A stretch of DNA of 64,000 bases from an uncultured Candidatus Saccharibacteria bacterium. GTDB taxonomy: Bacteria > Patescibacteriota > Saccharimonadia > Saccharimonadales > Saccharimonadaceae. Where the stretch lies: positions 62,001 to 126,000 of the forward strand of contig CAMVAM010000001.1 in the NCBI GenBank assembly GCA_947165465.1. Direction: 5' to 3'. The notes beneath the pieces were generated by a model. The model worked only from the letters and a program-made list of their open reading frames with translations. It made no database searches and was not told the DNA's origin. Below are positions 47,959 to 54,317 of the stretch, one piece after another (the first letter of the stretch is position 1; the number at the start of each line of letters is the position of its first letter). A program made the translations under genes and the position numbers.

Positions 47959-48018
47959 CTCTCTCAAGCACTTATCTGTCAGCGGATAAGAGCAATTTAA
48001 AAAGAGGAGGTGGCAGAA

Positions 48019-48660
48019 ATGTCATTCGAAATCCCGCGTGATATGCTGAAAATCACCACCACGGCAGAAGAGTATCGTTTACTCGAAGATCTGAAGGAAA
48101 GGAGACTGTATCTCTACCGCGAAATCGAACCCCTTGGCTATGAAGAGACCTCGAATGAGCATGCGTCGACGGCGACCCACATTGTGCAAGCAATCCTGGA
48201 CTTTAACCGCGACGACATGAACGTCCCGGTTTCGGACCGCAAGCCAATCAAGTTGTTCATCAACTCACCTGGCGGAGAAATCGAAGATGGCTTGCCGATT
48301 ATTGCGGCCATCGAACTCAGCAAGACTCCGGTTTACACGATCAACCTTGGTCGGTGGTGTTCAATGTCATTCTTGATTGGCATTACTGGCCACAGGCGTT
48401 ACTCGCTCCCGTACGCGACGTTCTTGCTCCACGAAGGTTCTTCTTTTGCTGGCGGTGCCGCCAACAAGGTTCAGGACCGAGTGAAGTTCGACGAACGAGT
48501 CGAGAAGGAGGTTATCAAGCCGCACGTTCTGAAGTACAGCAACATGAAAGATCATGAGTATGAAGCTTTGGCGCGTGTCGAATATTACCTGCTTCCGCCC
48601 GACGCCAAAGAGCGCGGTTTTATCGACGAGATTATTACCGACATCAACGTCATCCTCTAA
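48019..48660 (+). CDS. clpP: ClpP-family protease, variant active site
   Basis: 213 residues from the ATG at 48019 (GGAGG 8 nt upstream; a GTG at 48010 is too close to it). IKLFINSPGGEIEDGLPI matches the ClpP oxyanion region, GRWCSMSFLIGITGHRR holds the nucleophile Ser, and ATFLLHEGS the His. The usual RD of the third triad residue aligns with RVE, so Asp appears replaced by Glu. The N-terminus (about 50 residues) is longer than usual and the usual IVFLG start is missing. Monocistronic with own promoter and terminator. Function as a chambered protease is probable but not certain. Confidence 0.8.
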   Translation: MSFEIPRDMLKITTTAEEYRLLEDLKERRLYLYREIEPLGYEETSNEHASTATHIVQAILDFNRDDMNVPVSDRKPIKLFINSPGGEIEDGLPIIAAIELSKTPVYTINLGRWCSMSFLIGITGHRRYSLPYATFLLHEGSSFAGGAANKVQDRVKFDERVEKEVIKPHVLKYSNMKDHEYEALARVEYYLLPPDAKERGFIDEIITDINVIL

Positions 48661-52789: not shown

Positions 52790-53104
52790 TTACGGGAACA
52801 TTTCGTGGTAATACTGGGCGTAGACTCGCCGAATCTCGGCACCGCTCATCGAATGGAGCATATAAAGCTTTTCGTCGGCCTGCGCCTTGATAGATTCTAA
52901 CTTGTCATATTCACGATCGTAAAATTTTCGGTCCGGGGTTTCCCCGTTCTTCCATTTCTCTTCCAATTTCTTTGAAAAATTGTCCGCCAAATAATCACAG
53001 GCTGCTTTATAACGGGTGAATAAGTAATCGGTCAAGATTTCGTGCATGCGAAGCTCTTCATCATCAAGATAAATCGAATTAGCCGTAATAATCCCTCCTT
53101 TCAA
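52790..53104 (-). CDS. Unknown small helical protein, start codon uncertain
   Basis: About 95-104 residues, helical, charged, with Tyr-rich patches (YLFTRYKAACDYLADNF). The frame opens with TTG at 53104, but the strong AAAGGAGG lies after that codon, so translation probably begins downstream. The next in-frame codons are ATT, ATT, ACG and later ATG (about 53047). An ATT start is possible. TGGTATAAT (53138-53143) is the promoter. No family recognised. Confidence 0.5.
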   Translation of the reverse strand: MKGGIITANSIYLDDEELRMHEILTDYLFTRYKAACDYLADNFSKKLEEKWKNGETPDRKFYDREYDKLESIKAQADEKLYMLHSMSGAEIRRVYAQYYHEMFP

Positions 53105-53186
53105 AGAACTTACATGACTCTAGCCATATATACCTATATTATACCATAAAAAGATTAAAAAGTAAATGGAACAGGTGTCACAAGGC

Positions 53187-53215
53187 TTGTTTTTATCATT
53201 CAGATATGATATAAT
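53187..53215 (+). promoter_or_regulatory. Promoter of structured RNA
   Basis: TTGTTT (53187-53192), 17-nt spacer, TGA-TATAAT (53210-53215); transcription should start near 53222. Confidence 0.75.
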
Positions 53216-53221
53216 AAAAAA

Positions 53222-53663
53222 GATCAAACTACGGTGCGGTACGCCGCCCGTGGTAATGATTTACTCAGGGGAAGGGGACGTTCTCTGGTCGGGGTAAGAG
53301 GCCGTGGCATAGCCACAATCACCTCACACGCGCCTTTGCGCGGAGATTTATCCCGGGTAGAAACGCCCCTGAGTAAAAAGCCCCTCGGGGCAATACCGCC
53401 GTAGGGACGCCTGCGGATGGTACACGACGCCGCATCTGCCAATTGGCGGCGCGGAATGACTCGCACGGGGAAGGCCGTGCAGGGTGAAAAAAGACCATAG
53501 CGGGACACGTCCTGCCTATGGGATACGGATGAAGCGCTGCGGATTCCGTAGCTCGGCCGGTTACAGCCGGCAACAGAACTCCCGGGAAACACTCGGTGTC
53601 CGGACGCCTGAGCCTTGGAGTTCTCGCACATTCCTTTACCCGCTCCTTTTGGGGCGGGTTTTT
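53222..53663 (+). ncRNA. Large structured RNA, about 440 nt, family unknown
   Basis: Bounded by a promoter and a terminator, with no plausible coding frame. Stems read directly from sequence: CTACGG-GCGG-UACG-CCGC-CCGUGG at the 5' end; UUACUCAGGGG/CCCCUGAGUAA (11 bp, enclosing about 100 nt with GUGGC/GCCAC and GCGC/GCGC hairpins); GCCC-CUCG-GGGC; CCGUAGG-GACG-CCUGCGG; CGCCGC/GCGGCG; GCACGG/CCGUGC; CCAUAG/CUAUGG with an inner GGAC/GUCC; UACGGA/UCCGUA; GCCGG/CCGGC; and AGAACUCC/GGAGUUCU with inner ACAC/GUGU near the 3' end. Compared with remembered signatures it is not tmRNA, SRP RNA, 6S or a group I/II intron. A short ACAGAA stretch recalls RNase P RNA but the other conserved regions are missing. 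Confidence 0.75.
53638..53663 (+). terminator. Terminator of structured RNA
   Basis: ACCCGCTCC-TTTT-GGGGCGGGT stem followed by TTTTAA. Confidence 0.88.
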
Positions 53664-53671
53664 AATTTGAC

Positions 53672-54016
53672 TTAAAGTCCGTCATCAAAATCATCTTCAA
53701 CGACGGCTTTCGGAGCGTCATCAAAGAAAAGCTTATTTTTCCTTGCTGAAACAATAAATGAAATAAGTGGAATACAAAGTACTAGCGCCATTTTGATTGA
53801 TCCCACGGCATCCAATACATAATACCCGGAGCAAATGTCTCCATGGCATACACTTGATGGTTTAACTGAGAATGATGGTAAGAAAACATAGCAGAATGCA
53901 AAAACAATGAATAGCTCCGCTATGACCGGGTGTTTCTTTTTTAAAGAAAGACCAACCGCGAAGGCGAGTATTGTTATAATAATCCCACCAACACCGTTAA
54001 TCCAAAAATCTATCAT
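53672..54016 (-). CDS. Small membrane protein of unknown function
   Basis: 114 residues with three to four membrane segments and an acidic tail (VVEDDFDDGL). Two Cys sit in a predicted outer loop (SSVCHGDICSGYY). TGGTATTAT lies 9 nt before the ATG, so it is likely leaderless. No family recognised. Lies between the structured RNA and tRNA-Leu(GAG). Confidence 0.6.
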   Translation of the reverse strand: MIDFWINGVGGIIITILAFAVGLSLKKKHPVIAELFIVFAFCYVFLPSFSVKPSSVCHGDICSGYYVLDAVGSIKMALVLCIPLISFIVSARKNKLFFDDAPKAVVEDDFDDGL

Positions 54017-54047
54017 ATTAAGGATATAATACCATAGATTGATTAAT

Positions 54048-54130
54048 CGGTGCGCCTGTTTGCGAGCGAAGCGAGCATAATAATCAGTGCGCCTGCTGGC
54101 GGAGCGTCAGCGGAGCCCCAGGCGGCACCA
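54048..54130 (-). repeat. Partial copies of the tRNA-Leu(GAG) 3' end
   Basis: On the minus strand CAGGCGCACCG (near 54048-54058) and CAGGCGCACTG (54085-54095) copy the tRNA end CAGGCGCACCA. A third, inverted copy on the plus strand (54118-54138, CAGGCGGCACCAAGAAACAG) pairs with the tRNA end. Doubled motifs GCGAGC and GGAGCG lie between. Confidence 0.65.
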
Positions 54131-54167
54131 AGAAACAGAAAAAGACCCGGAGGGTCTTCTGTTTCTT
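54118..54167 (-). terminator. Terminator hairpin that extends into the tRNA 3' end
   Basis: CACCAAGAAACAGA-AGACCC, loop TCC, GGGTCT-(TTT)-TCTGTTTCTTGGTG, then CGCCTG able to pair with the tRNA acceptor strand CAGGCG. About 26 bp in all, with small bulges. Confidence 0.7.
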
Positions 54168-54258
54168 GGTGCGCCTGACTAGACTCGAACTAGCACAGCC
54201 GTGAATCTGGCCACTACCACCTCAAGGTAGCGTGTCTACCAATTCCACCACAGGCGCA
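54168..54258 (-). tRNA. tRNA-Leu (anticodon GAG)
   Basis: 91 nt with encoded CCA. Perfect 7-bp acceptor GCGCCTG/CAGGCGC, anticodon stem CTACC/GGTAG with loop TTGAGGT (anticodon GAG), long variable arm, and T arm with GTTCGAG. Confidence 0.95.
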
Positions 54259-54317
54259 TGCAAATATTATATCACATTTTCTAGAAATTGTGCAACAAAT
54301 CCCGCGCTAAACTCAAA

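Follow-up and report, generated by a model that had tools for sequence, protein, structure and literature searches.

What kind of gene lies at 53222-53663 (+) of the window, the 64,000-nucleotide stretch of DNA analysed here from a Saccharibacteria-type genome, where a sequence-only reading had proposed an independently transcribed and terminated RNA of elaborate structure and no recognised family? The locus was found to carry an independent gene for a structured non-coding RNA of ~410 nt, and the proposal is supported by negative Rfam searches, by homologues and by covariation. Genomes and loci of the collection searched are cited by their handles (G and L numbers), the window's own genome being G000.

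An independent gene with its own promoter and terminator

The gene consists of the following elements.

53187..53215, + strand: promoter, with a -35-like TTGTTT (53187-53192), 17 nt and a -10 TATAAT (53210-53215)
53222..53629, + strand: structured non-coding RNA, 408 nt to the terminator region, first letters GATC
53638..53664, + strand: intrinsic terminator, a hairpin (53638-53659) plus a T-run

The TTGTTT-17-TATAAT promoter described from the letters is present. Its -35 element is weak, agreeing with the consensus at only 3/6 positions, and its -10 element is extended (TGATATAAT, with a TGA extension before TATAAT); a consensus promoter scan of the window did not have it among its matches. 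The extended -10 is found in 7/7 homologues, at a spacing to GATC of 6 nt in six sequences and 7 nt in G355. The strong terminator claimed at the other end was located at 53638-53659 plus the T-run, and a GC-rich hairpin with a T-run stands 3' of the RNA in all six sequences that escape a contig-end cut. Promoter, RNA and terminator form one constant unit in all carriers, and the neighbours vary. Transcription would start at GATC (53222) from the extended -10 promoter and stop at about 53660 at the terminator.

The stretch had also been called non-coding, in agreement with the finding that no ORF is conserved across the homologues. An antisense ORF of 135 aa lies opposite the RNA in the window, with 93% identity to its counterpart in G047, 50% in G383 and 38% in G373; the antisense strand holds ORFs of only 91 and 61 aa in G020, and one of 64 aa in G355 that matches none of the others. 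Several indels among the homologues are not multiples of three. Judged from these sequences, the 135-aa ORF looks like a by-product of base composition.

Rfam searches of the locus and genome

The locus had been said to belong to no recognised family, and a covariance search with Rfam 15 (4227 models) agrees: over the whole window only two tRNAs reach the gathering threshold, and nothing does so at the RNA locus. When 53000-53900 was searched with permissive settings, anti-hemB scored highest (19.6 bits against a threshold of 49.5, E 0.063), at 53580-53667, i.e. the 3' end of the RNA with its terminator; a comparably weak anti-hemB match was found in G020 (20.1 bits, E 0.43). An Rfam model exists for raiA RNA. 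GOLLD, ROOL and OLE have Rfam families as well, according to PMC12286853. None of these four models matched in the window or in the loci L015, L003 and L014.

RNase P RNA (RF00010) and tmRNA (RF00023) lie elsewhere in the genome, the former at G000:C9:17933-18276 (221 bits, the sole match in the genome) and the latter above cut-off at G000:C9:10750-11103 (76.7 bits); ARAGORN found no tmRNA in the window. With RF00169, the model for small bacterial SRP RNA, no match was obtained in the 98%-complete genome G000, a silence that means little, because Bacillus subtilis is missing from the list of controls where the model rang. In the open-licence literature, no account of such an RNA in Saccharibacteria was found. 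Few bacterial RNAs as large as this one, with a fold both ornate and conserved, are known to stand outside every described family.

Homologues and distribution

Six homologues were found, five of them long forms in the window's closest relatives and one a 262-nt form in a distant species (G355). BLAST against 99 genomes of the genus gave two real homologues besides the window, G047 (95%) and G020 (75%), and three further short matches restricted to the promoter and the first RNA bases. The similarity to G020 covers positions 12 to 485 of the 491-base query, from promoter through terminator, with differing neighbours. Searching 394 genomes of the family with the G020 query added G383, G378 (which loses its 3' end where the contig stops), G373 and the 3' end of G355; the other matches listed were short and promoter-sized. 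The G355 RNA (L015) is complete but shorter, running from GATC to CGCAC in 262 nt, and has the same 5' hairpin and 3' half without the middle domain.

The seven sequences were used to build R1, a covariance model for the 3' core (53490..53629, 139 positions), which matched 7/174 genomes of the genus, namely the same seven from which it was built. Among 294 genomes sampled from the order it matched 3 (the window's genome, G047 and, weakly, G205), the same 3/294 in the class sample and 1/379, the window's own genome, in the phylum sample. In all three of these large samples diverged copies may escape, because the filters are stricter and the model derives from few sequences. The G205 match (L033:1501-1612, - strand; 25.4 bits, E 0.0056) contains only a P10-like hairpin with no 5' hairpin seen before it, and was judged to be chance. 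This hairpin stands shortly after a TATAAT-type promoter, probably also by chance. A core-motif scan of the genome collection returned 17 stretches, six of them the Saccharibacteria homologues already described (110 to 163.5 bits); among the other 11, ten had no R1 match at E <= 1 and one scored 12.9 bits.

No match to the RNA was found by blastn in 50,697 phage records, and plasmid records gave only a 31-base match, in two of them. Exact-pattern scans of viral contigs, which diverged copies could escape, gave four loci, all judged to be chance: L057, L058 and L075 had no R1 match at E <= 10, and L008 was judged by reading its sequence. When 60 genomes around G355 were searched with its RNA and flanks, the matches listed included no clean empty site, and among them the RNA occurred only in G355 itself, plus its 3' end in G020. 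The RNA is single-copy in the window's genome by DNA search. Its patchy presence in the genus (7/174) could indicate a dispensable or acquired element.

A conserved fold supported by covariation

The 442 nt including the terminator fold with a minimum free energy of -216.6 kcal/mol, compared with -170.0 +/- 6.0 kcal/mol for 100 dinucleotide shuffles (z -7.77), none of which was as good; the reverse strand gave z -3.38. Folded separately against 60 shuffles each, the window sequence reached z -6.0, G020 -6.8, G373 -5.2 and G355 -3.1. The stems named in the sequence-only reading are present. The helix map is given below, with the paired cells and two-sided changes counted for each helix over hand-aligned strands.

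53228..53254, + strand: P1, 5' hairpin, in all seven sequences, 77/77 cells paired (P1a 49/49, 0 two-sided changes; P1b 28/28, 1)
53260..53377, + strand: variable middle domain, closed by the long-range P2, absent in G355
53260-53271/53366-53377, + strand: P2, long-range, 12 bp in the window, 63/65 cells, 7 two-sided changes
53289-53296/53349-53356, + strand: P3, inside the middle domain, 40/40 cells, 5 two-sided changes, over five sequences because the inner helix of G020 differs and G355 has no P3
53304-53316, + strand: P4, inside the middle domain, 29/30 cells, 4 two-sided changes
53329-53342, + strand: P5, inside the middle domain, 30/30 cells, 0 two-sided changes
53380..53454, + strand: stretch with hairpins P6, P7 and P8
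53380-53391, + strand: P6, 24/24 cells, invariant
53394-53422, + strand: P7, 72/72 cells, 2 two-sided changes (P7a 42/42, 1; P7b 30/30, 1)
53430-53454, + strand: P8, 54/54 cells (base 24/24, invariant; tip 30/30, 4 two-sided changes)
53459..53485, + strand: P9, hairpin opening the conserved 3' core; its tip P9b covaries (28/28 cells, 2 two-sided changes), its base was not counted
53490..53629, + strand: 3' core used for R1
53495-53521, + strand: P10 (P10a 42/42 cells, 2 two-sided changes; P10b 35/35, 2)
53524-53550, + strand: P11, 35/35 cells, 3 two-sided changes
53556-53571, + strand: P12, 35/35 cells, 0 two-sided changes
53575-53582/53617-53624, + strand: P13, 56/56 cells, 8 two-sided changes
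53592-53612, + strand: P14, with the invariant apical loop CCGG at 53600-53603

The stems had been put forward for a covariation check, and in the alignment of the seven homologues compensatory changes support them. Over the whole RNA, 620/623 cells are paired, with 40 two-sided changes in 12/17 helix segments; these totals leave out the P9 base and a possible pseudoknot, and the share of paired cells is biased upwards because the strands were hand-picked, so that the weight rests on the differing letters. P6 and the P8 base are uninformative, since neither ever varies. In the core alignment A4, 13/45 pairs are changed on both sides, compared with 2.7 +/- 1.3 in shuffles (0/500 as high) and 0-2 in slid versions; of 315 cells, 99.0% are paired (shuffles 94.0 +/- 0.6%, slid versions 28-43%), and covariation scores 0.246, compared with 0.139 +/- 0.013. 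The seven sequences represent about four independent lineages, and many of the two-sided core changes come from G355 alone.

The long-range pair, read earlier as 11 bp, is real and extends to 12 bp in the window (P2), where it is maintained by compensation: its strands are UUACUCAGGGG/CCCCUGAGUAA in the window, UUAUUGAGGGG/CCCCUCAAUAA in G020 and UGCUAGG/CCUAGCA in G373, the last being the third-ranked complementarity of that sequence, in which the top-ranked one (15 bp) is its P3. The 8-bp stem near the 3' end proved equally real, with compensatory changes among the homologues; P13 occurs as GAACUCC/GGAGUUC, GAGCUCC/GGAGCUC and GAAGCCA/UGGCUUC. The 5' hairpin is real as well, but its cap reads UACG or UAAG depending on the homologue and has G-C as closing pair, so that it is not a classic cUACGg loop. 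For the alternative pairing, GGGGACGUUC/GAACUCCC can form on paper in the window and, with a G-U, in G047, G383 and G378; it is not conserved, as G020 and G373 have a different 5' partner and G355 has none, leaving the suggested switch with the 3' stem unsupported. A possible pseudoknot of CUCGG (53552-53556) with CCUGAG inside P13 is perfect in G355 (CUAGG/CCUAG), has a bulge in the window and is imperfect in G020.

Constraint is unevenly spread between the domains. By alignment A3, whose middle-domain part is imperfect, the window is identical to G020 at 148/170 core positions and 103/152 middle-domain positions, and to G373 at 144/171 and 92/154, respectively. Unconstrained folds of the middle domain have an identical plan in the window, G383 and G373; in G020, P2, P5, P6 and P7 are kept and the inner part is different. 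Among core columns with at most one gap, 30/48 unpaired and 54/90 paired columns are invariant, and unpaired letters are therefore kept as well as paired ones.

The sequence UCCGGA around the P14 loop is invariant in all seven sequences, and its CCGG is self-complementary. In each of six isolated 3'-domain folds (G378 left out), CCGG is unpaired with a probability of at least 0.83. An open CCGG loop is favoured without being certain, since a competing 3'-domain fold, which joins the UCC of UCCGG to a GGA upstream of it, costs 8.6 kcal/mol more in the window and only 2.2 kcal/mol more in G047. Cofolding of the window RNA as a homodimer gained -20.5 kcal/mol, compared with -13.2 +/- 2.8 kcal/mol for 25 shuffles, an energy hint only, as a strongly self-complementary RNA can give such a gain without a dimer. 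The cofold model thus hints at loop-loop dimerisation via CCGG.

Genomic context of the RNA gene

Three features surround the gene in the window.

52790-53104, - strand: 104-aa gene, flanking the RNA upstream
53672-54016, - strand: 114-aa ORF, flanking the RNA downstream
54167-54257, - strand: tRNA-Leu(gag), downstream of the RNA

The tRNA-Leu that had been noticed nearby is the tRNA-Leu(gag) listed here. An upstream gene block is common to the window, G047, G383, G378 and G373, the 104-aa gene being absent in G373. Downstream, one ORF separates the RNA from the tRNA-Leu and transporter genes in the window; in G047 and G383, 6 to 9 kb of differing genes intervene, in G373 those genes are on another contig, and in G020 about 18 kb lies between the RNA and the transporter gene. 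In G355, the RNA stands between a VanY-type gene and a 184-aa gene downstream of ruvB. No neighbour gene is common to all carriers.

With the window flanks as query, the best pieces scored 9393 bits for the window itself, 2415 for G383, 2367 for G378, 2188 for G047, 2109 for G373 and 940 for G020; the next match after these six long-form genomes, among the matches listed, was G368 with 364 bits. Over the downstream transporter region, identities were 81% (G383), 80% (G378), 76% (G047), 76% (G373) and 71% (G020), followed by 65% for the next three genomes; identities of 70-71% also occur in some genomes that lack the RNA, over shorter stretches (300-500 bases). As the six best flank genomes are the six long-form carriers, the long form was, on this sequence comparison, probably already present in the ancestor of the window's clade.

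A role as a cis-regulatory leader, such as a riboswitch or attenuator, was also considered and is not supported. No downstream gene on the same strand is common to all carriers, and a terminator intervenes. Just downstream, the same 240-aa gene is found on the same strand in G383 and G373, and a 489-aa gene in G047; the next downstream ORF is on the opposite strand in the window and G355, and the downstream genes of G378 and G020 lie near contig ends, where they cannot be judged. Farther downstream, G047 and G373 have an operon-like pair in common (489 and 470/484 aa class). From the gene order, some transcriptional read-through into the downstream neighbour is conceivable in G383, G373 and G047.

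The RNA stands at the edge of a gene-variable region (52790-54260 in the window; also L051, L052 and L053), which is perhaps a defence hotspot and in three genomes (the window's, G047 and G383) extends as far as tRNA-Leu(gag). In G047, this region encodes an HATPase protein matching MzaB (PADLOC, 1.8e-24) that adjoins a sigma-region-4/RNA-pol-alpha-CTD protein, and a homologous pair is present in G373. The region of G383 carries an HTH-Panacea antitoxin-like gene, whose G373 homologue is 55% identical. A Clp-protease-like protein (Pfam CLP_protease; G355 L055:7791-8486, - strand) is encoded within 3 kb of the G355 RNA, and a 41% identical one at 48010-48660 (+) of the window, about 5 kb upstream of the RNA, possibly by coincidence. 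A Pfam search of 10 window proteins at E <= 0.01 gave only SBP_bac_5, SecG and UvrC-type domains (with a weak DUF7508) and weak Y_Y_Y/CopC matches, and no partner protein for the RNA was found.

Possible function and alternative explanations

Comparison of the homologues establishes, at the level of sequence, that the unit is independent and conserved, that its fold is kept and that it has neither protein-coding nor known-RNA identity. We consider it reasonably probable that this is a stand-alone structured-RNA gene, so far seen only in part of one Saccharibacteria genus, which most likely acts in trans through its fold. Action in trans rather than in cis is favoured because promoter, RNA and terminator are kept together and no neighbour gene is common to all carriers. 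The conserved core (P1 and P9-P14) would carry a grafted peripheral domain of about 200 nt (P2-P8) in the window's clade, and the RNA would most likely serve as a folded scaffold or an RNA-protein, possibly homo-oligomeric, particle; we infer its transcription, its action in trans and the formation of an RNA-protein particle or oligomer. As Saccharibacteria genomes are very small, an RNA that has retained its promoter, fold and terminator is probably worth its cost to the cell. The minimal form of 262 nt and the expanded one of 408 nt offer a natural comparison of core and periphery.

The structure might instead be the stable carrier of a regulatory sRNA or antidote RNA that base-pairs with mRNAs or with RNA from phages or plasmids. 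The independent promoter and terminator and the gene-variable surroundings, with defence- and antitoxin-like genes in some relatives, would suit such a role, which we nevertheless regard as unlikely, the RNA being predicted to be mostly paired, with compensated stems. We give somewhat less credence to a catalytic RNA or a remnant of a self-splicing or mobile RNA element. The fold is complex enough for this, and the unit occupies a different position in G020 and G355 from that in the other five genomes; against it, no Rfam ribozyme or intron matched in the window or in L015, L003 and L014, the RNA is single-copy, the coincidence of the best six flank genomes with the six long-form carriers points to descent, and no reverse transcriptase or transposase was seen among the neighbours scanned (many in G383, G373 and G020 being left out).

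That a strongly diverged housekeeping RNA (RNase P, tmRNA, SRP or 6S RNA) is involved appears very improbable: the genome has its RNase P RNA and tmRNA elsewhere, the Rfam SRP and 6S models give no match at the locus, SRP domain IV was not seen by eye, and SRP RNA is expected in nearly every genome, unlike an RNA found in 7/174. The silence of RF00169 in the genome would fit a diverged SRP RNA, little as such silence means. It is hardly credible, finally, that the stretch is no functional RNA at all, i.e. GC-rich intergenic DNA or a decayed gene folding by chance. It is indeed GC-rich, and its reverse strand also folds better than shuffles and holds the 135-aa ORF; this ORF, however, is not conserved, the helices show compensatory changes, and the core is identical to G020 at 148/170 positions compared with 71% over the downstream transporter region.

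Comparison with known large bacterial RNAs

A resemblance to OLE, GOLLD and ROOL had been suggested, and it holds for size and ornateness alone; no Rfam model matches, and no phage link was found. OLE and raiA are large bacterial RNAs with conserved multi-helix folds like that described here, without an Rfam match at this locus. Bacterial RNase P RNA type A (RF00010) is of similar size (model of 367 positions) and likewise multi-helix, and the genome has its own copy elsewhere. OLE RNA forms a homo-oligomer, and the solved structures of OLE, ROOL and GOLLD are homo-oligomeric complexes, two of them nanocages, as reported in PMC12286853. One could imagine, although we hold it doubtful, that the present RNA represents a new ornate-RNA class of ultra-small host-dependent bacteria, in which homodimers or larger oligomers, made of RNA alone or mostly of RNA, assemble through the P14 CCGG, with the clade-specific grafted domain setting partner or cargo.

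According to PMC12286853, GOLLD RNA is large and ornate, has a conserved 3' and a less conserved 5' region and often lies near tRNA genes, all of which recall the RNA described here; many GOLLD members, however, exceed 800 nt, about twice the present size, and they are encoded in phages or prophages, whereas the present RNA was not found in the phage and viral searches. ROOL, as described there (PMC12286853), is similarly large with no protein partner identified, but is borne by phages or prophages and is 659 nt long in a described case. The first ROOL example came from cow rumen (PMC12286853), and for 3/6 relatives carrying the present RNA the record titles name goat jejunum, roe deer omasum and roe deer jejunum.
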